Assembly: GCF_014764505.1 (NCBI RefSeq)
Contig: NZ_JACXWX010000059.1
Location: 1-32,544 of the forward strand
From: Phormidium tenue FACHB-886
GTDB taxonomy: Bacteria > Cyanobacteriota > Cyanobacteriia > Elainellales > Elainellaceae
Length of the DNA: 32,544 nucleotides
Reading direction: 5' to 3'
Part shown: piece by piece, positions 6,938 through 32,457 of the stretch
Numbering within the stretch: position 1 is the first letter of the stretch
Layout of the letters: each line of letters opens with the position of its first letter
Program-made: the position numbers and the translations under genes
Notes under the pieces: model-generated
What the model was told of the DNA's origin: nothing
What the model saw: only the letters and a program-made list of their open reading frames with translations
The model's database searches: none

Positions 6938-7885
6938 ATGTTGACCCTACCAAAGCCATATGTAGATGAGTTGTTATATAGCATTTTGGTAAGGTATTAC
7001 ATTCGGAGCGGTTACCGTAAAGTTAAAGAAGCGCAAGTCAAGTTATTTGATACCTTACCTCAACAACCTTGGGATATTCTCCTTCCAAGTAACCTTAAGC
7101 GTTTAACTAGAAAACTGTGGACTAAAGCGAACTATACGCCAGACTATTTCATTCAGGGTCATACCTTGTACCCCTTCTATGCACAATTTCTAATACCAGT
7201 AGAAACAGAGCTGCTGAGACAAGTGATGGTTCAACAGGGTAGGGCTTCAGTTCCAACAATCGCAAAAATTCCGCTGAATGTAGAAAAGGCTTGTCATAGC
7301 TACTTAAAATTCTGTCCGCAGTGTTTTGAGCAGGAATCTGACGAATTGGGAGAAGCCTATTGGCACCGGACTCATCAAATTCCAGGAATTGTGCTTTGCC
7401 CAGATCACGAAGTTCCATTGCTAAATAGTACAGTCTGCCTTAACTCAAAAGCCTTGCATTACATAGCGGCAGACTCTGACACCTGTCCCATCAACAATAA
7501 TGTACCTTCTTATACGGACTTGACAAAGCATAGAATGACTGCCTATACAGAATCCCTTGAGCGGTTGATAGATAGACAGATCCCGTTCAGGGGATTAGCT
7601 TGGCTTCGTAAGCGTTATCACCACTATGCTGCTCAGAAGGGTTTTCTGAAGTTTGATACTGCGACGAACTTTACATTCGACGAAACGAAGTTTTTTGAGG
7701 AGCTTTGTGATTTCTATGGCGAGGAATTTCTGGATAACATCCTACCTGTTTCATTTCAAAGCTCAAAACATCAGTTTATCCAATGCCTGCTTGCATGCGA
7801 TCTTGAGCAGACGATCGATCGAGTAAGACATATTCTACTGATCAATTTTCTGTCTGATTCATTACAAGATTTCTTCGCCTATTAG
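6938..7885 (+). CDS. tniQ: TniQ, short target-selection adaptor
   Basis: A 315-aa TniQ-family protein. In CASTs TniQ docks on the CRISPR effector and nucleates TnsC at the target. The N-terminus LPKPYVDELLYSILVRY is the family signature. A zinc-binding region follows: C126-x2-C129, the conserved YWHRTHQIPG near 141-150, then C154-x2-H157. The rest is helical. At 315 aa it is well below the usual size of site-specific TnsD proteins, so I call it TniQ rather than TnsD, although it sits next to tnsC, where TnsD is often found. No other TniQ-family protein is visible in the window. Confidence 0.9.
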   Translation: MLTLPKPYVDELLYSILVRYYIRSGYRKVKEAQVKLFDTLPQQPWDILLPSNLKRLTRKLWTKANYTPDYFIQGHTLYPFYAQFLIPVETELLRQVMVQQGRASVPTIAKIPLNVEKACHSYLKFCPQCFEQESDELGEAYWHRTHQIPGIVLCPDHEVPLLNSTVCLNSKALHYIAADSDTCPINNNVPSYTDLTKHRMTAYTESLERLIDRQIPFRGLAWLRKRYHHYAAQKGFLKFDTATNFTFDETKFFEELCDFYGEEFLDNILPVSFQSSKHQFIQCLLACDLEQTIDRVRHILLINFLSDSLQDFFAY

Positions 7886-10838: not shown

Positions 10839-11183
10839 CTATTCAGTTGGAGGATAAAGAATTGCCCGATCCGCTTCCGATAAAGGGCAAATAATGCTCC
10901 ATAAGTCCGGTGGGATATGATGATAGCACCGCAGCAAAAAATAAAACTCACTCAATCGGCGAAGGTAAACCTCTTTGACCATTTTGGGTTCTTGCCCCTG
11001 GCTCATCCACCGCTCGATCGTCCGGGTTGTGCAGCCTGCAATAAAAGCAAGTTCTTCATATGACAGATCATATTCACTCTGAAGTTGTCGGGGATGCTCC
11101 AAAGCTAGATCGCAGTTGACATACAGCCGAAACAGGGTTCTTTCCTGTGGACCGAAAGGTCTAGGTCTAGGTGTACGACTCAC
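10839..11183 (-). CDS. Helix-turn-helix protein of cyanobacterial cargo operons
   Basis: A 114-aa protein with a clear helix-turn-helix at about residues 40-65 (LSYEELAFIAGCTTRTIERW). This resembles a small-protein family common on cyanobacterial plasmids and islands, in which a short HTH domain is followed by a helical tail. It overlaps the end of the upstream 128-aa gene by 4 bp, indicating translational coupling, and lies 111 bp upstream of the DUF262/HNH gene. It is a plausible transcriptional regulator of the operon. The DNA target is unknown. Confidence 0.65.
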   Translation of the reverse strand: MSRTPRPRPFGPQERTLFRLYVNCDLALEHPRQLQSEYDLSYEELAFIAGCTTRTIERWMSQGQEPKMVKEVYLRRLSEFYFLLRCYHHIPPDLWSIICPLSEADRAILYPPTE

Positions 11184-11566
11184 TGAGAACCCTCCCAGGT
11201 AGTCGAGGAAGTTGAGCTGGTGTTTGATGTTCGTAGTACCTCGATGTCATCTTCCCCTGCCCACTCCGCTACAACCCAAGAGCGGGAAGGACTATCAGAA
11301 TCCAAAAACACTAAATAGAGCCAACTCCAACTCAGACATCCCTGTTCTGTCTTCCCAAATGGCACAAATGCTCGCCCAATGATTGTTCCCCTGTCTGTCA
11401 GCTCAGTGGGAGGAACCCACTGACAGCGGGATCCGATGTCGTATTTAGGAACCTCTAATTCTTGAGGCAAACATTCGGGTAAATTGACTAACTCCAGGTC
11501 TTTCACCCGCAAAGACACCAGATTCCAATGACCCCGAGAAGGTTGTGAAGATGAACTAGGTTCCAT
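11180..11566 (-). CDS. Uncharacterised 128-aa protein, first gene of the GmrSD-like operon
   Basis: No known domain recognised. The protein has a predicted beta-rich centre (SWLYLVFLDSDSPSRSWVVA) and a Ser/Thr-rich C-terminus. The start is taken at ATG 11566 (MEPSSSSQPS); ATG 11587 upstream is also in frame. It overlaps the HTH gene by 4 bp, a pattern that often marks partner proteins made in fixed ratio. It is divergent from the ribbon-helix-helix gene at 11658, sharing an intergenic region with three aatttgcaaa repeats. Confidence 0.5.
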   Translation of the reverse strand: MEPSSSSQPSRGHWNLVSLRVKDLELVNLPECLPQELEVPKYDIGSRCQWVPPTELTDRGTIIGRAFVPFGKTEQGCLSWSWLYLVFLDSDSPSRSWVVAEWAGEDDIEVLRTSNTSSTSSTTWEGSQ

Positions 11567-11606
11567 AAAAAGCCGATTCTCAAGCAATGGGGATTGCTAG
11601 AAGTAT

Positions 11607-11641
11607 AATTTGCAAATTTGCAAAAGTGACAAATTTGCAAA
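11607..11641. promoter_or_regulatory. Three iterated aatttgcaaa operators between divergent genes
   Basis: The 10-bp sequence aatttgcaaa, itself largely palindromic, occurs at 11607-11616, 11615-11624 and 11632-11641 in the 91-bp divergent intergenic region. A TATAAT overlaps the first copy (11604-11609). Iterated short sites beside a ribbon-helix-helix gene are the usual arrangement for cooperative autoregulation. Confidence 0.55.
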
Positions 11642-11657
11642 AACTTAACATTTTCAA

Positions 11658-11915
11658 ATGTCGTGGGAAAATGACCCATGTGACTTCATGTGTTATTACC
11701 CCGCAACCTTGGCTAGCAAAGCAGAAGATCCAAACTACATTCAGGTGAGAGGGCATGTCCAAAAGCGCATAGCCCGCAGGTTTAAGGCTATTTGTAGTGA
11801 AAGAGGTATTGACTTTGGGCAGGGAATGGAAGAGGCATTTCTTCCCTGGATTGAGCAGCAGGAAAAACTCCTCCGAGAAGAAGAGCTAGACTCTAAAGAC
11901 CAGCCGCAAAGCTAG
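11658..11915 (+). CDS. Small ribbon-helix-helix protein
   Basis: An 85-aa protein. After an N-terminal tail of about 27 residues, a predicted beta strand (YIQVRGHVQKRIARRFKAIC) leads into two helices (RGIDFGQGMEEAFLPWIEQQ), the pattern of Arc/CopG/ParD-like ribbon-helix-helix DNA-binding proteins. The C-terminus is acidic. The start could also be ATG 11688. It is probably a dimeric repressor acting on the adjacent aatttgcaaa repeats; no toxin gene follows it. An ORF-poor region of about 1 kb with repeats lies directly downstream, so an alternative role is binding DNA there, as plasmid partition proteins do. Confidence 0.6.
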   Translation: MSWENDPCDFMCYYPATLASKAEDPNYIQVRGHVQKRIARRFKAICSERGIDFGQGMEEAFLPWIEQQEKLLREEELDSKDQPQS

Positions 11916-12300
11916 TCAAGTTTTCGATGAGTAGTAAAAGGTGGAATTTCTAGCTTCCTTGAGTACAAGCTTTTTGCTTCCAAGTCTTTTAGGGTTTTCC
12001 CCCTTAAAGCTCCCCATCTCTTGGTCTGGAGGAGTTTTAAGACCGCATGGTAAAGCTCTTAAATTCTTCTTAGACTTCTAGGTAATCAGGGTTAGTCCAT
12101 GGTCAATATTCTGCAAGTTTAGAAAGACCCGTGCCCTAAAACGTCCTTCAAGTCCAGCATCCAGGGTTTATAGCTTTTATACCTGCCGAGAGAGCATTAC
12201 TTCCTAAATGTTGCAAATTCCAACTCGGTCTCCAGTCCCTCTAACTCCTGCCGGTCATATCAACCCTTCTAAGTTGTTAGCCAGTAGTATTCTGCATTTT

Positions 12301-12660
12301 CTAAAAAGACCCTAGCCTTGAAGAAGCTGCCGGATAAGGAATGCAGCCATTTCAGCCATCCCTTTTTAGAGAAAACCTAAGTCCTCCCAGTCCTCCAAAA
12401 GACCTTCACCTTCTAATCTCCAAAAACCTCACTCCGCCAACTCTAACATCCCAAAGACCTAAAAGCCTTTTCGGGTGAGCTTTTCGGGGTTTTTGCCGCA
12501 GCTTTTCTAATCAAAGCCATGGGTCTAACCAGTGAGGTTTTTCATCCCCTAAAAACCCCCTGGCCTTGAAGCCGCCGCCAGATAAGGAATACAGCTATTT
12601 CAGCTACCCCTTTTTAGAGAAAACCTAAGGTTTCTCTAAAAAACCTTTATCTTCTAATCT
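12301..12660. repeat. Diverged direct repeats of about 120 bp (offset 248 bp)
   Basis: Copy A (about 12301-12420) and copy B (about 12549-12660) align without a gap over the stretch from ccttgaag (12316 and 12564) through ataaggaat (12334 and 12582) to tttttagagaaaacctaag (12363 and 12611). Some paired changes occur (cagccatttcagccat against cagctatttcagctac), hinting at constrained structure. Confidence 0.75.
12611..12642. repeat. 12-bp inverted repeat with 8-bp spacer (loxP-like)
   Basis: The arms tttttagagaaa (12611-12622) and tttctctaaaaa (12631-12642) are perfect inverted copies around the 8-bp acctaagg. This geometry matches tyrosine-recombinase core sites. A half-site (arm plus acctaag) recurs at 12363-12381. 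It lies about 280 bp upstream of the recombinase-like gene. It could instead be a transcription terminator hairpin, but no T-tract follows. Confidence 0.55.
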
Positions 12661-12923
12661 TTAAAGGTCTTTAAAGCCCAAAAACCTGGAAGTCTTTCGT
12701 AATGGGCTTTTTGGGTCTTTTGCTACAAACTCCCCAGCAAAGACCTACAATTCTAAGAAGAAAGAAGATTATTACTAGATGAGTTTATGGACTTGTTATC
12801 CTAGAAAGCTGAAACCTGCTCTATTCAAAGCTTTGAGTACTTGTCGGACTGACAGTGCGTTATCAAGCCTAGTCTTTGAGTGACTTGATTCAGTGTATTT
12901 GACAGGGGTTTTTGGGGAAGATT

Positions 12924-14354
12924 ATGGAGTCCAAAAAAACAGATCCTCCCACTAAAAAAGGTAAACCCGTCAAAACAAGGGCATTAGGAGATCCTGAAGT
13001 TCCTAAAGATGCAAAAAAGACCCGGAAGGGCAAGCAAAGGCTCAAAACAAGCTTTTACTCTGCATCGGAAGATGAGTTGCCTGCTTTTTTAAAGGAACAA
13101 CTAAATCAGCTAGAGGAATTCTGGACTAGGACTGAAAACTCTCGACGCCGCGAAAAACCAATTCGCCCAAAAACCTATAGAACCTACAAGAATCATATTC
13201 TGAGCTTTTTAGGGTGGTTGACCTGTGTTCGCGCAACAAACCTAAAAGACATTAAATTAGAGGATCTGACCAATCAGGGTTTGCTGTCCGATTTCATCGC
13301 TTGGGGATTGGAACAGCGTGGAAACTCGCATGGCTGGGCATTAAATGTTGCTCAATCTGCAATGCTGATTGCAGCGTGGCAACATGCTGATGTGCAAACT
13401 AATCCCTCTCAAGATTTACCGGCGATCGCTCAACTTCGGAACTACATCAGCATTTTGAGACGCCAATACAATGACGAACTAGTAGCTAAAAAAGGTGAAA
13501 AAGCTAGGTTAGCCGAGGATGCTTATGAGCTAACGGACGAACTTCGCCAAAAAATTAGTGCGTATCTGCGCCAAGATTGCACAGAAATTGATTCTGCTGG
13601 AAAAGAGCGATCGGAAATTGAGCTTTTGAGATCGTGGCAACGGTATCTCATCACGAGTATCCTGCTGTTTTGTCCAATTCGGTTACGGACCCTGTGTCAA
13701 CTTGTGCCAGCACATAATCTCCTCCGTGAATCCGATGGTTCTTGGGTGATCGTGACAGAAACTCAGCACAAAACTGGTTACTCTGGAATACCAGTCAAGC
13801 TGCACCTGCCTCAGTTAAAGGACGATTTGACAACTTGGATAGAGAAGTGGAGACCAAGGATTAAAACAAAAAATAATTTTGCATTTACCAAATTAGGGTC
13901 TAATCGACTTCCATCGGCCTTGGGGCAACCTTTAACTGAACGAGATGCGTGGGAACTTGTAGCCCGAGCTACTGAGAAGGCAACAGTAGCAATTCTTGGT
14001 ACTCCGGTGCGAATCAATCCAAGTATGCTTCGTCGATCGCATATACCTCTCGTACCAGAACGACTAAGTGCTTGCGATCGAGACTTGTCTTCATCTCAGA
14101 AGAATTCCAAACATATAAGCGTGACATGGCCTTGCACATCACTTAAAACTTCGATACAACAGCAAGATATTAAACAAGTTGCCAAATTCTTCAAGGATTT
14201 AGGAATAGCACTAGAAAACTATAATCCTGATTCACAAACTCTAACAAATTTGATTCAGCAAATAGAACATTTGAGTGCAAGCAAATCGTTAAGAGTAGTA
14301 AAACACCTCGAAGCTATCTTGCACATTCTTGAAAAGGATACACCTGCGGAGTAA
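12924..14354 (+). CDS. Tyrosine-recombinase-like protein, catalytic tail possibly frame-disrupted
   Basis: 476 aa from ATG 12924, preceded by ggggaag. The N-terminal 45 residues are very basic. Residues about 60-190 resemble a SAM-like core-binding domain (RTYKNHILSFLGWL). The catalytic region shows a candidate Arg I in PIRLRTLCQL (about 251-260), a beta-hairpin Lys in QHKTGYSG (about 283), and Arg II in INPSMLRRS (about 370), with N or S where the usual His of HxxR lies. No convincing Tyr motif follows in this frame. A different frame at about 14040-14145 reads EEFQTYKRDMALHIT, which resembles the active-site Tyr segment. The gene may therefore contain two small shifts or be a diverged, inactive relative. 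Confidence 0.6.
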   Translation: MESKKTDPPTKKGKPVKTRALGDPEVPKDAKKTRKGKQRLKTSFYSASEDELPAFLKEQLNQLEEFWTRTENSRRREKPIRPKTYRTYKNHILSFLGWLTCVRATNLKDIKLEDLTNQGLLSDFIAWGLEQRGNSHGWALNVAQSAMLIAAWQHADVQTNPSQDLPAIAQLRNYISILRRQYNDELVAKKGEKARLAEDAYELTDELRQKISAYLRQDCTEIDSAGKERSEIELLRSWQRYLITSILLFCPIRLRTLCQLVPAHNLLRESDGSWVIVTETQHKTGYSGIPVKLHLPQLKDDLTTWIEKWRPRIKTKNNFAFTKLGSNRLPSALGQPLTERDAWELVARATEKATVAILGTPVRINPSMLRRSHIPLVPERLSACDRDLSSSQKNSKHISVTWPCTSLKTSIQQQDIKQVAKFFKDLGIALENYNPDSQTLTNLIQQIEHLSASKSLRVVKHLEAILHILEKDTPAE

Positions 14355-14737
14355 GGTAACTCCTTGCAATCCATAACCAATAGCGAACTCGTCACATAGA
14401 AAAATTTTAAAGATGCCCTGATTACTGTAAATCTTGGGCATTAGCTCATTATGCTGAAGATTTGTCAGAACTGGCTGTATTAAGTTCTGCAAGAATTTGT
14501 TGAGAATTGTTAATTTTACTAGCGATTTTTGTCATCGCATCTTCGTAAAGCAAAAAGTTGGCAGTTTGAATGTACCTTTTTAAAAAGGTACGTTAACTAG
14601 TGGCTTGCATCAGGTTAAAGATGAACTTCAACCTTTGGTGCTTTCAGCATTGGTCCTATACCGAGCAGTAAACGGGGAACGAGCTTCAACAGACACAAAC
14701 GATGCTTGGGTATCAGTAATTTGTTGTGTATCTACAG
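14355..14737. other. Intergenic region upstream of the cas operon
   Basis: This 383-bp region separates the recombinase-like gene from cas6. It holds the putative cas promoter and a perfect 20-bp palindrome (14572-14591), then an untranslated leader of about 145 nt. A 68-codon open frame at 14605-14811 runs through the leader into cas6 in another frame; it has no recognisable domain and I do not call it a gene. Confidence 0.6.
14558..14591 (+). promoter_or_regulatory. Putative cas promoter with 20-bp palindromic operator
   Basis: TTGGCA (14558-14563) and TAAAAA (14581-14586) are 17 bp apart. The -10 box lies within the perfect palindrome gtacctttttaaaaaggtac (14572-14591), so a dimeric protein bound there would block the promoter. 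Its outer GTACC/GGTAC halves resemble those at the tnsA start. Confidence 0.5.
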
Positions 14738-18793: not shown

Positions 18794-18967
18794 CTAAGTT
18801 TGATGTCGTAAGGCGTTAAGAACATCATTTTTGAAAAAGAGTGAAGACCTAACATCGCAATTCTTTAAGTTTGATGTCGTAAGGCGTTAGGAACGCGCAA
18901 GTGGTTTGGCTTCACTGATGGCTCACCTCGGTGCTTTAAGGTTTGATGTCGTAAGGCGTTGAATATT
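18794..18967 (+). CRISPR. Mini CRISPR array, three repeats, last one atypical
   Basis: The 20-bp core gtttgatgtcgtaaggcgtt is perfectly repeated at 18798-18817, 18869-18888 and 18941-18960 (periods 71 and 72). Around the core, conservation runs from c(t)ttaag to tta(a/g)gaac, giving repeats of about 29-32 bp and spacers of about 39-43 bp. The third repeat has an extra G before the core and loses the tta(g)gaac end, reading gaatat instead. Two normal spacers are defined; a third, terminal guide may follow the atypical repeat. No spacer matches other sequence in the window by eye. The small array beside cas5 without cas1/cas2 suits a CAST. Confidence 0.85.
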
Positions 18968-26106: not shown

Positions 26107-29100
26107 ATGACATCTACGACTCTCGAACCAGGGCAAATTATTCGAGTTCGTTCGCGCCAGTATCTGGTCGAAGATGTGATTCCTGCGGATTCTCCTGTCG
26201 GTGATACCAGAGTGCGTTTAGCCTGCCTGGAGGATGACGCTCAGGGTGACATCCTGGAGGTCTTTTGGGAGCGGGAAATTGATGCTCAAATCCTTGAGGC
26301 AAGTTCCTGGGAAGCGGTTGCTAAGCGAGGGTTTGATGATCCCCGCTATTTCTCGGCGTACCTCCATGCTCTGCGATGGAACTGTGTTACCTCCACTGAC
26401 CCAAAACTATTCCAGGCTCCCTATCGTGCTGGAATTGAAGTGAAGGCGTACCAGCTAGAGCCGTTACGGAAAGCTCTACGAATGCCGCGAGTCAATCTCT
26501 TTATTGCAGATGACGTGGGTTTGGGCAAGACAATCGAGGCTGGTCTGATCTTACGTGAGATGCTGATGCGGCAGAAGATTAAGCGAGTCGTCATCTCCTG
26601 CCCTCCCTCTGTAGTGCGCCAGTGGAAAGATGAGATGGAAAGCCGTTTTGGTCTAACCTTCATCATCTATGATCGCGACTTTGTGGCCTCCAAACGACGC
26701 GAACGAGGCTACGGCATCAATCCCTGGAAAACCCATACGCGGTTCATCATTTCCCATTCCCTGCTACGGGATGAGACTTATGCAGCGCCATTAAGAGACT
26801 GGTTGCAAGACTTTTCAGCCGGGTCAATGTTGATTCTGGATGAAGCTCACAATGCGGCTCCCGCCAGTGCGTCTCGCTATGCGATCGATTCCCAGTTAAC
26901 CCGAACGGTGCGTGACTTAGCACCCCGGTTTGAGCACAAGTTGTTTCTCTCCGCCACGCCCCACAACGGACACTCGAATAGCTTTGCGGCACTGCTCGAA
27001 ATCCTCGATCCACAGCGGTTTTGTCGGGGTGTACCTGTACGAAGCAAGAAGCTATTAGATGCCGTGATGGTGCGGCGACTCAAGCAGGACTTGCGGGAAA
27101 TTAACAATGCGGATTTCCCAAAACGCGAGATTATCCCGGTCATCGTTAACGACTTACCCGAAGATGCTCCTGAGCTGAAGCTCTCTCAACTGCTTCAGGA
27201 GTACCGACAATGTCGGGAGGAGCGGTTGAAGGATGCACCGAAATCCACCCAAACAGCCGCCCTGTTAGTTCTAACTTCCCTTCAGAAACGGTTGCTGTCA
27301 TCCATTGAGGCGTTTGCTCACACATTGAAAGTACATCGTCGAGCGATCGAGCGGCAGGCGGAACAACAATCCACTGCCCAGCAGAACTATTCTCTACTGC
27401 AAGAATCGCCAGGTAACGATGACGATCGAGCGGATTTGGATGAGGATGAGGTGCTGAAGGAAGAAGCCGCCCAGATGGAAAAGGCAACTCAAGTAGCAAG
27501 TGCCGCTATCTCACAGCGCGAGCTTGATCTGCTGAAGGAAATGACCCAAATTGCAGAGCAGGCAAGACACGAATCCGATAGCAAGGTGAAGAAGCTGGAG
27601 GACTGGATACGGCAGCACCTCTGTCCGGATTTAGGTAAACCAGGAGCAACCTGGCTCAATCGACGGGTCTTAATCTTCACTGAGTATACCGACACCAAAC
27701 GCTATCTAGAGCAGCAGCTTGGAGCCATTATTGCCAACTCAGATCGGGATCGTGAACGCATCGATACCTTTCACGGCGGGATAGGCGAAGAACAGCGGGA
27801 GTATATCAAACAAGCCTTTAACACTGACCCGACTCGTCATCCTCTCAGGATTCTGATTGCGACGGATGCAGCACGGGAGGGGGTTAACCTCCAAAACCAT
27901 TGTGCCGACCTGTTCCACTTTGATGTGCCCTGGAATCCCAGCCGGATGGAGCAGCGCAATGGACGCATTGACCGTAAGCTTCAGCGTGAGGCTACAGTTC
28001 GCTGTCACTATTTTGTGCTGGCTCAGCGGGTGGAAGACAGGGTGTTGGATGTATTGGTGAAAAAGACCAGGCAAATTCAGGAGGAATTGGGAAGTTTGTC
28101 TCCTGTAGTGGAGAAGAACGTCTCGAGGCTATTGGATAACGGAATTCGCAAGGCGGAAATCCAAAAGCTGACGGAGGCGATCGCCACCTCAGATCAATCG
28201 GATTCAGACTCCACTGATCGCACCAGCACCATTACTGAAGAGTTGGAGGCGATTCGATTACGGCAGGACAAACTGCGCCAGCAGCAAGTAGAACTGGAAT
28301 CGATGCTCAGGGACTCCAAACTGTGGCTAGGGCTGGACGATCGCCATTTTCGAGATACACTGTCGGTGTCTCTGGAGTTGATGGGAGCAGAACCACTCAA
28401 ACCATTAGATGCAGCGGCAGCGGTTGGGGATGAAGAACGCAGTCAGTGGATTGTACCAACTCTCGACCAACAGGCAGGGGCTGATCCAACCTGGGCAACG
28501 ACACTAGACACCCTTCGGGCACCCCGGCAGAAGACCCAGAAGCTATGGGATTGGCGGAAAGAAGCACCCATTCGTCCGGTGGTCTTTCGAGATCCGGGTT
28601 CACTGGATGGTCAGGTTGTGCATCTGCATTTAGAACATCGGATTGTACAGCGGCTTTTGGGTCGATTCCTCTCGCAGGGATTTCTGCATGATGAGTTGAC
28701 CCGTGCTTGTGTTTGTCGAACTGATGACCCCATTCCACGGGTGCTGATTCTCGGAAGGTTGTCGCTGTATGGCGATCGCGCGGCTCGTCTACATGACGAG
28801 ATCGTTATTGTCGCCGCCGAGTGGATTGACCCAGATGCCAGAGGCAGAGGTAAGCTTCGCCCCTTGAGTGAGGGTGAGAAAAAGGATGTGTTGCAGATTT
28901 TGGAAGATTCACTGGCGCATCCCCGATTAAGGGAAGTGCCTAATGCCTTAATCGATAAGCTGAAGGTTCATACGGCGAGGGATGTTGAGGATTTATTGCC
29001 TCACCTGGAGCGTCGTGCCACAGAGCTAACCGATCGCGCAAAACGCAAGTTGGAACAACGCGGTGAGAAGGAAGCCGCAGAAATGAAGACGTTGCTGGAG

Positions 29101-29337
29101 GAACAGCGCGATCGCATTCTCAAGCAAGTGAAGCAATACGAAATCCAACAATTATCTCTATTCAATGCTGATGAGATGCGACAGATTAATTCGGATCGTC
29201 AACATTGGGAGAAACGAGTCCGTGAGCTTGAGACAGAAATTTTGCGTGAACCAGAGCGCATTCAGCAGGCATATCAGGTGAAGGCTGAACGGATTGAGCC
29301 TGTTGGCATCGTCTACCTATATCCAGTCTCCAATTAG
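26107..29337 (+). CDS. drmD: DrmD, SNF2-like helicase of class 1 DISARM
   Basis: A 1076-aa SNF2-family ATPase. Walker A is DDVGLGKT at 135-142, the DEAH box is at 245-248 (LILDEAHNAAP), motif III is LSATPHNG, and the C-terminal lobe has ATDAAREGVNLQ and WNPSRMEQRNGRIDR. Acidic coiled-coil stretches separate the lobes (residues about 420-520) and continue near the C-terminus. DrmD defines class 1 DISARM, a methylation-linked system that restricts incoming phage DNA with DrmMI, DrmA, DrmB and DrmC. It is transcribed away from the WYL regulator. A gene of unknown function follows 16 bp later, before drmMI. Confidence 0.9.
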   Translation: MTSTTLEPGQIIRVRSRQYLVEDVIPADSPVGDTRVRLACLEDDAQGDILEVFWEREIDAQILEASSWEAVAKRGFDDPRYFSAYLHALRWNCVTSTDPKLFQAPYRAGIEVKAYQLEPLRKALRMPRVNLFIADDVGLGKTIEAGLILREMLMRQKIKRVVISCPPSVVRQWKDEMESRFGLTFIIYDRDFVASKRRERGYGINPWKTHTRFIISHSLLRDETYAAPLRDWLQDFSAGSMLILDEAHNAAPASASRYAIDSQLTRTVRDLAPRFEHKLFLSATPHNGHSNSFAALLEILDPQRFCRGVPVRSKKLLDAVMVRRLKQDLREINNADFPKREIIPVIVNDLPEDAPELKLSQLLQEYRQCREERLKDAPKSTQTAALLVLTSLQKRLLSSIEAFAHTLKVHRRAIERQAEQQSTAQQNYSLLQESPGNDDDRADLDEDEVLKEEAAQMEKATQVASAAISQRELDLLKEMTQIAEQARHESDSKVKKLEDWIRQHLCPDLGKPGATWLNRRVLIFTEYTDTKRYLEQQLGAIIANSDRDRERIDTFHGGIGEEQREYIKQAFNTDPTRHPLRILIATDAAREGVNLQNHCADLFHFDVPWNPSRMEQRNGRIDRKLQREATVRCHYFVLAQRVEDRVLDVLVKKTRQIQEELGSLSPVVEKNVSRLLDNGIRKAEIQKLTEAIATSDQSDSDSTDRTSTITEELEAIRLRQDKLRQQQVELESMLRDSKLWLGLDDRHFRDTLSVSLELMGAEPLKPLDAAAAVGDEERSQWIVPTLDQQAGADPTWATTLDTLRAPRQKTQKLWDWRKEAPIRPVVFRDPGSLDGQVVHLHLEHRIVQRLLGRFLSQGFLHDELTRACVCRTDDPIPRVLILGRLSLYGDRAARLHDEIVIVAAEWIDPDARGRGKLRPLSEGEKKDVLQILEDSLAHPRLREVPNALIDKLKVHTARDVEDLLPHLERRATELTDRAKRKLEQRGEKEAAEMKTLLEEQRDRILKQVKQYEIQQLSLFNADEMRQINSDRQHWEKRVRELETEILREPERIQQAYQVKAERIEPVGIVYLYPVSN

Positions 29338-29353
29338 TCATGGTACTTCTCTA

Positions 29354-31030
29354 ATGAAATCCCAAGAATATAAGACTGCACTATTTCAATACTTCAATGT
29401 GACTTCTCTCAAGGAATTGCGCGCCAATCAACAGTGGCAAGAGATTGAAGCAAGAGAGGGTATAACTAACTTACGTACTGTGCAATCTCTGGAGAAGGCA
29501 TACCAATCTGTTTTTGGATGTACTCAAGATTCTTCAAATGCAGATGATACTACTGATTCAATATCTAAGGAAGAGGACACTATATCTAGAATTGTGGATT
29601 TAGTTGAAAATAAATCCACTGATTCAAAATTCGATTCAAATTCTGAAGAGACTGGTTGCTTCCATGTGATGGAGGATAACCAGGGAAATATGGTTGGTGC
29701 CTTATTAGAATACTCATCAGAACAAAGCCAGAAGCTAATTCAGCATTTCAAGAATCTAGAATTACATTCGCCTCAACCTTGGCATCAAGGTAGCCTTCAC
29801 TCGGCTGTTGTTGATCAACTCGGCGCAACCTCTGCTCTTGTTGCAACCGGACTCCAGGCGGGTCAGCTTTTTAGGGTCGTTGGACCTCCTGACTTAGTTG
29901 CTAAGGTGGCATCTGGAGCTTATCAAATGATGCAAACTAGCACAGGTGCTTTGGGTACTGTGACGAATGGTGCAGGGAAAATTGCAGGTCAGTTACGCTT
30001 CGCTTCTGGTAGCTCCGCATTGCCCGTTCTCGCGCCTATTGCTGTTTATCAAGTGCTGCATGCGATCGTTGGGACACAGCAACTCAACGAAATCAATCAA
30101 CGATTAGCCAAAATTGAACATACCTTGCAGGAACTGTATGTTCGACAAGAGGCAACCGTTCTAGGAGAAATCCATTACGCAGTTACCGTTTTGGATGACA
30201 TCTTAGAAAGCCGGATGAAAACAGGAATTTTTACACCGGATGCGATCAGCCGTTTGGCATTGGTTGAAAAAACAATCCTTTCAATCCTTGAAAGAAATCG
30301 ACTATTGACGGAACGTTTTCGGGACAAGGCTTCTTCCGTCAAAAAACAATCAAAAAGAAAGGGTGCGCGGAATACTGCTGAGTTACTTAAAACCGATGGA
30401 CCGCAAGCCGCCTACGATATGCAATGTTTAGTCGGACTCATAGCAGCCGACCTGAAACTAGAGCAAGCCTTGCTGCTCCTGGTAATGCAAAATAACCCAA
30501 CCGATATTGGTAGGAGACAAGAGCGAATCCGCTCAAAAATGGAGTCTCACCATGCGGTCGTCGAAAATCTTCCATCCATACAGGAACTAGAGAAACATGC
30601 TCAGGCTTGCCTGAAAGCAATGGATTGGTGGGAAAAACTATTTGATTTTGGCAAGACCAAAGGTGAGGTTAAAGCTGCCCAAAAGTTGAATTTAAAAGAC
30701 ATTCGCCCTTCAACAGATGAGCTGCAGCCAAGCCTCAATGGATATGTTTTCTGGCGTGATGCAGATGGAATTCATGCCTTTGCAATGTCCGGCGATGACT
30801 TGGCGGTGCAAGAAAGTACCTTACAGCTTACAGTGAAGTCGATCTTATCGCCTGGAAGTACTCACAAGATTCGGTTGCCTGGAAGTTCTGAGCTAATCCA
30901 GATTTTTGTCGAGAAGGAGATAGAAACTGGGTTGTGGTTTGGCTACCGCACTGATGGAACTAGCCAAGATAAGGTGCTGATTCAGCACAAAGACCTCTAC
31001 AAACCATGCTTAATTCAAGAGGGTGTTTAA
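29354..31030 (+). CDS. Uncharacterised 558-aa protein inserted between drmD and drmMI
   Basis: Starts at ATG 29354, 16 bp after drmD. I do not recognise the family. Residues about 40-100 are acidic and S/T-rich. A region at about 150-245 is hydrophobic, glycine- and alanine-rich (ATSALVATGLQAGQLFRVVG; LPVLAPIAVYQVLHAIVG) and could insert in or lie on a membrane. A coiled coil follows (NEINQRLAKIEHTLQELY), then a helical domain to about 460 and a C-terminal beta-rich domain. It overlaps drmMI by 25 bp if drmMI starts at 31006, so it belongs to the operon. Class 1 DISARM does not normally carry a gene here, so it may be an accessory effector. Confidence 0.75.
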   Translation: MKSQEYKTALFQYFNVTSLKELRANQQWQEIEAREGITNLRTVQSLEKAYQSVFGCTQDSSNADDTTDSISKEEDTISRIVDLVENKSTDSKFDSNSEETGCFHVMEDNQGNMVGALLEYSSEQSQKLIQHFKNLELHSPQPWHQGSLHSAVVDQLGATSALVATGLQAGQLFRVVGPPDLVAKVASGAYQMMQTSTGALGTVTNGAGKIAGQLRFASGSSALPVLAPIAVYQVLHAIVGTQQLNEINQRLAKIEHTLQELYVRQEATVLGEIHYAVTVLDDILESRMKTGIFTPDAISRLALVEKTILSILERNRLLTERFRDKASSVKKQSKRKGARNTAELLKTDGPQAAYDMQCLVGLIAADLKLEQALLLLVMQNNPTDIGRRQERIRSKMESHHAVVENLPSIQELEKHAQACLKAMDWWEKLFDFGKTKGEVKAAQKLNLKDIRPSTDELQPSLNGYVFWRDADGIHAFAMSGDDLAVQESTLQLTVKSILSPGSTHKIRLPGSSELIQIFVEKEIETGLWFGYRTDGTSQDKVLIQHKDLYKPCLIQEGV

Positions 31031-32457
31031 CTATGGCAACCGATCTAGACATCCTCAGGCATAAAGAGTGGCTTGGACTACTTCAGCCAGTCGGTTTGGT
31101 CGTTTCACCACCCGCGTTGATTAAGGCACAGGCGGTAATCGATCGTGGCAAACTCGTTGATCTGCAGGAACATCTACTGACAGTAATTTCTACAGAACCT
31201 ATTTCTCGTCACAAGGATGACAGGGTCGCCTGGATTGAGAATTTTCCGGCGTTTACTCAAAAGGTTTTGGGTTGGCGCGATCGTGACTTAGTTGGTGCAG
31301 CAAGTCAGGAGGAATTGCCGGAGGAGTTATCGGTAGCTCTGCCCAGTTATGGGGAGGTGTTGAAGCCGACCTATGCTGTCTGCGATCCAGACACGCAAAA
31401 ATGGGTGTTGTTGATTCAAGAGACTGCACCAGGGTTACCCTTTGATGAGGATGATCCAGCAACAGCAACGGGGCAGGGTTGGCAAGCCAGTATTCAGGCA
31501 AAGTTTGAGCGGTTGCTGCGAGAAACAGGTGTGTATGCCGGATTGCTCGTGAATGGAACAGAGCTTCGGTTGGTCTATGCGCCCAAGGGTGAGTCTTCTG
31601 GGCATCTAACCTTTTCCGTACAGGCAATGACGGAGGTGCCGGGTCGGTTGATTTTAGGTGCCCTTGATCTGCTGATGGGTGAGGATCGGCTGTTTAATGT
31701 GCCGGAGAATCAACGGCTGAATCGGTTGTTAGAGGATAGCCGGAACTATCAAGCGGAAGTTTCAACCAAGCTATCGGGTCAGGTTTTAGATGCGTTGTGG
31801 GAACTGTTGCGAGGATTTCAGGCAGCGGATGCGGCAGTGAATGGAAAGATCCTCAGAGAGTTAGCTGAAACTGACCCACAGCATATCTATGGGGGACTGA
31901 TTGCCACGTTGATGCGGCTGGTGTTTCTGCTGTATGCCGAAGATGAAGGGCTGATGCCAGATGATGAGGTGTATCAGCGCAACTATGCGGTGTCGGGGCT
32001 GTACGAGAAGTTGCGGGAAGATGCAGGCAACTACCCAGACACACTGGATCAGCGGTATGGAGCATGGGCGATGCTGTTGAGTCTGTTTCGTCTGGTGTAT
32101 GACGGAGGTGGACCCACCGAAGAGTATCTTCCGGCGCGGCATGGGCAGTTGTTTGACCCGGATGAGTATCCGTTTTTGGAAGGTCGCCCGATCGCTTCTC
32201 ACTTTGCCACATTCGGCAGGATTGAAGCCCCTCGCGTTTCAGATGGGGTGATTTACCGGATGCTGGATAAGCTGCTGGTGCTGGATGGAGAGCGGCTGTC
32301 CTATCGTGCCCTAGATGTTGAGCAGATTGGCTCGGTCTATGAGGCGATCATGGGCTATGAGGTGGAGATCGCTCACGGACGATCGATCGCCGTTCGTCCG
32401 AAAGATGTGGTGGTGGATGTAGACAAGATCCTGGCAGGATGCCTGTCTAGGTGTTAA
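31006..32457 (+). CDS. drmMI: DrmMI-like DISARM adenine methyltransferase, truncated
   Basis: The 483 residues correspond to the N-terminal part of a class 1 DISARM methyltransferase: LRHKEWLGLLQPVGLVVSP at the start, LSGQVLDALWELLRGFQ near 255-275, and YGGLIATLMRLVFLLYAEDEGL near 295-318. The catalytic NPPY methylase core, expected several hundred residues later, is missing. Similarity stops at about VVVDVDKILA (near 32440) and the frame closes within eight codons. ATG 31033 is an alternative start giving MATDLDILRHKEW, which avoids the overlap and fits the family better. The rest of the gene lies beyond an apparent insertion or deletion. DISARM host-DNA methylation is thus probably lost or encoded elsewhere. 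Confidence 0.8.
   Translation: MLNSRGCLTMATDLDILRHKEWLGLLQPVGLVVSPPALIKAQAVIDRGKLVDLQEHLLTVISTEPISRHKDDRVAWIENFPAFTQKVLGWRDRDLVGAASQEELPEELSVALPSYGEVLKPTYAVCDPDTQKWVLLIQETAPGLPFDEDDPATATGQGWQASIQAKFERLLRETGVYAGLLVNGTELRLVYAPKGESSGHLTFSVQAMTEVPGRLILGALDLLMGEDRLFNVPENQRLNRLLEDSRNYQAEVSTKLSGQVLDALWELLRGFQAADAAVNGKILRELAETDPQHIYGGLIATLMRLVFLLYAEDEGLMPDDEVYQRNYAVSGLYEKLREDAGNYPDTLDQRYGAWAMLLSLFRLVYDGGGPTEEYLPARHGQLFDPDEYPFLEGRPIASHFATFGRIEAPRVSDGVIYRMLDKLLVLDGERLSYRALDVEQIGSVYEAIMGYEVEIAHGRSIAVRPKDVVVDVDKILAGCLSRC

Follow-up and report, generated by a model that had tools for sequence, protein, structure and literature searches.

A motif-rich non-coding region upstream of a recombinase-like gene in a cyanobacterial type I-B-like CAST

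The window analysed here is a 32,544-nucleotide stretch of DNA, the whole of contig C211 of an 8.9-Mb, 255-contig cyanobacterial genome. Between a small gene and a recombinase-like gene, it contains about 1 kb (11916-12923) with hardly any open reading frame. What could such a region be for? A sequence-only reading had offered two answers, a structured RNA or a recombination array.

A non-coding region inside a Tn7-like element

We recognised tnsA, tnsC/TniB and tniQ in the window by profile matches. A tnsB-like gene matched no Pfam or NCBIfam family and was assigned by its position and by eye. The gene order is tnsA, tnsB-like, tnsC/TniB, tniQ, two small genes, a GmrSD-type gene and three small genes, followed by the non-coding region and the recombinase-like gene. 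Next comes a cas6-cas8-cas7-cas5 set that matches I-MYXAN/I-B models, with three CRISPR-like repeats at 18795-18966 after it. This order indicates that the region sits inside a Tn7-like, CRISPR-associated element of the type I-B kind, and we conclude that its host element is a type I-B-like CAST.

The region is non-coding. Its longest stop-to-stop frame wholly inside is 53 codons, in line with the earlier statement that no 60-codon frame is open on either strand; in 300 first-order shuffles the longest frame averaged 81 codons, and just 2% of them had one that short. The strong C-over-G skew that had been described was also recovered (-0.129 over the region, reached by 1.1% of the contig's 1008-base windows), and it is strongest at 12250-12499 (-0.29, reached by 0.7% of 250-base windows). 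We considered whether the region is the decayed N-terminal coding part of the recombinase and rejected this: when eight recombinase proteins were compared with 11601-14500 by tblastn, no match within the non-coding part was better than E 0.6, which agrees with the remark that the region is unlike decayed coding DNA. A search of the genome itself for other copies returned just one 18-bp match (E 0.66). In literature searches on Tn7-like elements, cyanobacterial recombinases and plasmid origins, I-B2 CAST intergenic regions, TnpI-type sites and small DNA-binding proteins that accompany cyanobacterial recombinases, the titles and abstract openings among the matches listed did not describe the region. 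We conclude that this is a real, modestly unusual non-coding region, the features of which are collected in Table 1.

Table 1. Features of the non-coding region and its surroundings (positions in the window)
Feature	Position	Strand	Remarks
12-9-12 bp inverted repeat	11609..11641		between the divergent 135-aa and 85-aa genes
85-aa small protein gene	11658..11915	+	ribbon-helix-helix-like by eye
Left part of non-coding region	11916..12300		94% identical to G027 over 373 aligned bases; 12 deleted in G027
Partial third copy of unit's start	12091..12130	+	~40 bp
AAARACC cluster	12123..12745	+	starts 12123, 12305, 12398, 12422, 12453, 12551, 12639, 12680, 12739
AAARACC, minus-strand sites	12488, 12536, 12666, 12714	-	also 12907, beyond the cluster
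Copy 1 of ~248-bp tandem unit	12277..12524	+	core 12278-12381; outer limits approximate
Copy 2 of unit	12525..12760	+	core 12526-12629; outer limits approximate; G027 has one copy
Perfect 12-bp inverted repeat, 8-bp spacer	12611..12642		AT-rich; not terminator-like (by eye)
476-aa relative of plasmid tyrosine recombinases	12924..14354	+	ATG 12924 chosen as start; TTG 12912 in frame list

A duplicated unit, its homologue and its motifs

Two blocks of roughly 120 bp at an offset of 248 bp had been noticed before, and we find them as a repeat of 79-80% identity over 104-119 bp: a direct repeat between the two cores (104 nt, 80%, offset 248) and a blastn pair at 12301-12419 and 12549-12660 (79%, E 5e-23). 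The third block suspected near 12090 exists as a ~40-bp match to 12276-12312 and not as a full copy. Against copy 1, its score is equalled by only 0.2% of 500 shuffles, while the score against copy 2 is within chance (71% of shuffles as high); the partial copy is also present in G027 (0.4% of 500 shuffles as high). Of short-period tandem arrays the region has just one, with a 10-bp unit repeated 1.9 times.

We searched for homologues by blastn, and few were found. Among the 36 genomes of the order, matches came from the genome itself, G027 and G022. The one true homologue lies on contig C100 of G027, which belongs to another genus; the G022 match is a single 53-bp piece at 79%. A shallow search of the class (388 genomes, two candidates scored per genome) matched 15 genomes, 12 of them with only 21-32 bp pieces at E 0.001-0.01. 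The region had no match in the plasmid collection at E 1e-5 and was not found in viral contigs searched with one pattern. A search of genome contigs with a single pattern, its two ends fixed and its gap variable, returned one record, FACHB-471, which is probably the G022 piece. The collection of homologues that had been suggested thus yields G027 and otherwise only a 53-bp fragment.

G027 has the same gene order: a GmrSD-type gene, small genes, the 85-aa gene, the non-coding region and an interrupted recombinase gene. Its unit is single, with a left flank that matches that of copy 1 (95%) and a right flank that matches that of copy 2 (88%). The "array" is therefore a tandem duplication in the window or a contraction in G027. 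Copy 1, copy 2 and the G027 unit are related in a star-like manner (79%, 77% and 75% identical). The two copies differ by 21 transitions and 6 transversions. The earlier claim of parallel substitutions that look constrained is not supported: the neighbouring non-coding stretch compared with G027 has a like bias (18 transitions, 3 transversions).

We then followed the identity to G027 across the locus. In 100-base bins it lies at 91-100% between ~10.8 and 12.3 kb. The highly similar tract (10840-12300) is shared by two genera, and further out, on both sides, third positions are 52-57% identical. To the right, the unit can be aligned at 12301-12425 and 12650-12790, where 188 of 236 bases agree (80%), compared with 57% at 12791-12923 (129 bases; Fisher p 1e-5) and 52% at recombinase third codon positions (167 positions; p 6e-9). 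To the left, identity is 87% in the 114-aa gene, 71% at the right end of the GmrSD-type gene and 57% at the third positions of that gene overall. This profile indicates that a tract of three small genes and the first ~385 non-coding bases was shared recently between lineages, and that the repeated unit either is constrained to some degree or belongs to an older tract, two options that a single homologue does not separate. Successive recombination tracts can also produce the identity step at the unit, and the fall is staged on both sides of 11.5 kb.

The repeated A-rich/ACC motifs remarked on earlier were confirmed by counts. AAARACC occurs 14 times in the region (9 on the plus strand and 5 on the minus strand, with 0.45 and 0.46 expected), a total reached by none of 1000 shuffles, and this 1 kb contains 14 of the 24 AAARACCY sites in all 32.5 kb. 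The G027 homologue has 6 sites against ~0.5 expected, again unmatched in 1000 shuffles. Since that homologue has a single unit, the excess does not arise from duplication alone. The spacing of the motif in the window is irregular.

The region also contains a perfect 12-8-12 inverted repeat, which none of 25 shuffles of the region equals; its counterpart in G027 is imperfect (10 of 12 pairs, spacer 9; 8% of shuffles as good). With the 12-9-12 repeat upstream, it makes up the only two places in the contig with this geometry (arms of 12, at least 11 pairs, spacer 6-9). At the upstream repeat, the 9-bp centre between the arms is inverted in G027 relative to the window, which suggests a micro-inversion by template switching or recombination.

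The flanking genes and their plasmid relatives

The 85-aa protein, which we take to be ribbon-helix-helix-like, matched no Pfam, NCBIfam or PHROGs family at the limits used. It is 99% identical in G027 and was not found in a scan of viral contigs. In the class, 23 of the 388 genomes, its own included, encode relatives with E of at most 1e-5. Its gene belongs to a recurrent module (10839-11915), in which a small ribbon-helix-helix-like gene diverges from two others, one of ~90-135 aa and an HTH-like one of ~85-115 aa. Relatives that diverge from two window-like small genes occur on G465:C13, on G005:C60 and, by eye, on G000:C229; the latter two contigs look plasmid-like by eye.

The recombinase-like gene does lie directly downstream of the region, as had been noted, and it is degenerate. 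In alignment with its relatives, the 476-aa protein keeps Arg-I and the HKTG lysine, has Ser for the His of box II, and has no N-terminal domain; nothing matches past the "LRR" of box II, including the H..Y end. The H..Y end is also missing in two relatives, Planktothrix H2 and Geminocystis H3. By this alignment, the 476-aa protein is not a catalytically complete recombinase. Pfam gave only SAM-like matches below threshold and unrelated ones, no PDB entry was matched up to E 1 by the single sequence, and a structure predicted without an alignment had a mean pLDDT of 36 and was set aside.

Relatives of the 476-aa protein are found on nine plasmid records (Allocoleopsis, Planktothrix, Geminocystis, Nostoc, Aulosira and Crinalium; H1 to H9 here). 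Protein scans of genome contigs and viral contigs found none, and a scan of 386 genomes of the phylum at E 1e-10 found two genomes, its own and G179. We examined the gaps upstream of the gene in eight of the nine records (H1 to H7 and H9). These gaps are 506-843 bp without an annotated gene, whereas the other gaps in these loci (46, of which 7 are at least 500 bp) have a median of 186 bp (Mann-Whitney p 2e-4); the plasmid gene tables are incomplete, the H6 (L057) gap is overstated (homology from 4001, annotated start 4199) and the H9 (L058) gap is cut at the start of the record.

The upstream gaps show no clear repeat enrichment over other gaps of these loci. For direct repeats, 3 of 8 upstream gaps and 3 of 20 other gaps of at least 200 bp surpass all 40 shuffles; for inverted repeats, the counts are 2 of 8 and 6 of 20. 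Clear repeats are present in some upstream gaps, and the motifs vary from plasmid to plasmid: a 20-bp palindromic tandem in H1, three copies of a 15-16 bp motif in H2 and a 38-bp pair in H3. The Nostoc plasmids H5 and H7 have in common an inverted GTCATAAATA site ~320-330 bp 5' of the recombinase gene and, by eye, a further half-site downstream. In H4, H6 and H9 the palindromes resemble ordinary terminators, and the paralogue on G000:C229 has no upstream repeats.

Possible roles of the region

We tentatively favour the view that the region is a DNA-level binding and control region of the plasmid-type recombinase-like gene in this CAST. The region is non-coding and duplicated in part, has the AAARACC excess in both homologues and has an inverted repeat that is rare in the contig; the unit is better conserved than the sequence downstream, the plasmid relatives follow long gene-free stretches, and H5 and H7 share an inverted site. 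The AAARACCY motifs and the 12-8-12 inverted repeat would form a cluster of predicted protein-binding sites, and the candidate binder is the recombinase-like protein, the 85-aa protein encoded upstream, or both. Binding would control expression of the recombinase gene or, in intact relatives, mark the DNA on which the recombinase acts, and the tandem repeat would be a 248-bp duplication of part of the control region. Speaking against a control region, conservation is thin (one true homologue and the fragment), the inverted repeat is imperfect in G027, the plasmid motifs differ, the spacing in the window is irregular and the plasmid gaps lack clear repeat enrichment. Nearly as likely, and the main rival, is drifting spacer DNA, a long 5' region that lost its function with a decaying recombinase gene and gained its repeat by chance tandem duplication. 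The catalytically incomplete protein, without its C-terminus in the window, and the interrupted gene of G027 suggest that the unit may be decaying. Copy number is not kept (two against one), the left part (94% identical) is more diverged than the 85-aa and 135-aa genes (97.6% and 98.5%, all codon positions), and homologues are few among the 388 class genomes, namely the region itself, G027 and one fragment; all of this favours drift. Drift accounts poorly for the strong motif excess in both homologues, for the perfect inverted repeat and for a unit better conserved than the sequence directly downstream.

A structured RNA, either a leader or a small RNA made from the repeated unit, is unlikely. 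The consensus fold of three sequences pairs GGGTCTTTTGC with GCAAAGACC downstream and is more stable than 150 column shuffles, which do not keep dinucleotides (z -2.3 on the plus strand and -3.6 on the minus strand; -3.8 for columns 171-300 of the plus strand, 0 of 150 as low). Such an excess on both strands fits palindromic DNA as well as RNA. The alignment has 7 two-sided pair changes, as many as only 4 of 500 letter shuffles, in a test whose structure was derived from the same three sequences. Re-folded column-shuffled alignments have a mean of 5.6 and 31% of 150 reach 7, which places the covariation of these three sequences within the column-shuffle range. Folded singly, most 120-base windows depart by no more than 1.7 sd from their 60 shuffles. 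Those that go beyond are two overlapping plus-strand windows (z -2.2 at 12576 and -3.3 at 12636) and one on the minus strand (-2.1 at 12443); the matching plus-strand windows of G027 reach only about -1.2, and the lowest value anywhere in G027 is -2.0. The whole window matched none of 4227 Rfam families at gathering thresholds, a relaxed search of 11600-13000 gave five weak matches, all far below gathering scores, and 11500-14700 has no plus-strand terminator-like site. The RNA proposed by the sequence-only reading is thus unsupported. It is improbable, more so than an RNA, that the region is a former plasmid origin or partition site, an iteron or centromere array that entered the transposon along with its small DNA-binding gene. 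Iteron-type origins carry ~17-22 bp direct repeats spaced regularly, in step with the helix. The region resembles them in that a short motif recurs many times in a part of a plasmid-type module that has no genes; the module recurs on the contigs named above, and one plasmid has the recombinase together with a ParG-annotated and a DUF3854 gene. It differs in its irregular AAARACC starts and in having no recognised replication protein gene beside it. The gaps beside the small gene in G005:C60 and G000:C229 have no blastn similarity to the region, and AAARACC is absent from the former and occurs 3 times against 0.75 expected in the latter (5% of shuffles).

Does the region act as a recombination site? 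Xer/dif-type sites and TnpI-IRS are recombinase-adjacent recombination and control regions of plasmids and transposons, and in tyrosine recombinase sites a short spacer separates inverted arms of 11-13 bp. The 12-8-12 repeat has this form (spacers of 6-9 bp tested), and the likeness extends to extra half-sites and to the position upstream of a tyrosine recombinase gene. The window differs in its irregular motif spacing, in a protein without the catalytic C-terminus and in that no recombination product was seen. With its motif cluster, inverted repeat and duplication, the region may be a recombination array in a looser sense, as DNA bound by protein next to a recombinase-like gene. The least probable reading is that the CAST took in a catalytically dead tyrosine-recombinase protein along with the protein's own DNA control array, whose AAARACCY sites and 12-8-12 palindrome would be where the protein assembles, steering transposition, as TnsF does by protein, or silencing the adjacent cas operon. 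TnsF of Tn6022 is an inactivated tyrosine recombinase that serves as a target selector (PMC10293859). The window is alike in having a catalytically incomplete tyrosine-recombinase relative inside a Tn7-like element. TnsF is recognised by an operon with a short tniQ, whereas the recombinase-like gene is 5 kb from tniQ (6938-7885) and outside any operon with it, the genes between being mostly on the opposite strand.

The region is of little importance if it is drifting spacer DNA. Should its motifs be binding sites, they would offer a handle on what the recombinase-like proteins of nine cyanobacterial plasmid records bind, and on how a plasmid-type module came between the tniQ and cas genes of a CAST.

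Elsewhere in the element, spacer 2 of the short CRISPR array (18895-18934) matches 28 of 40 positions at 1365-1404, in a hydrolase gene by the presumed left end of the transposon; several of the mismatches are six bases apart (by eye), and the next best site in the contig matches 23 of 40. This imperfect site was absent from the blastn list of the genome searched with spacer 2. Spacer 2 may serve the CAST as a homing guide. Immediately 5' of tnsA (1455-1517), a 20-bp repeat stands about three times in tandem, which may provide binding sites at the transposon end. At 26107-32457, the window carries DISARM-like cargo, namely DrmD and a 483-aa protein that matches the first half of DrmMI.
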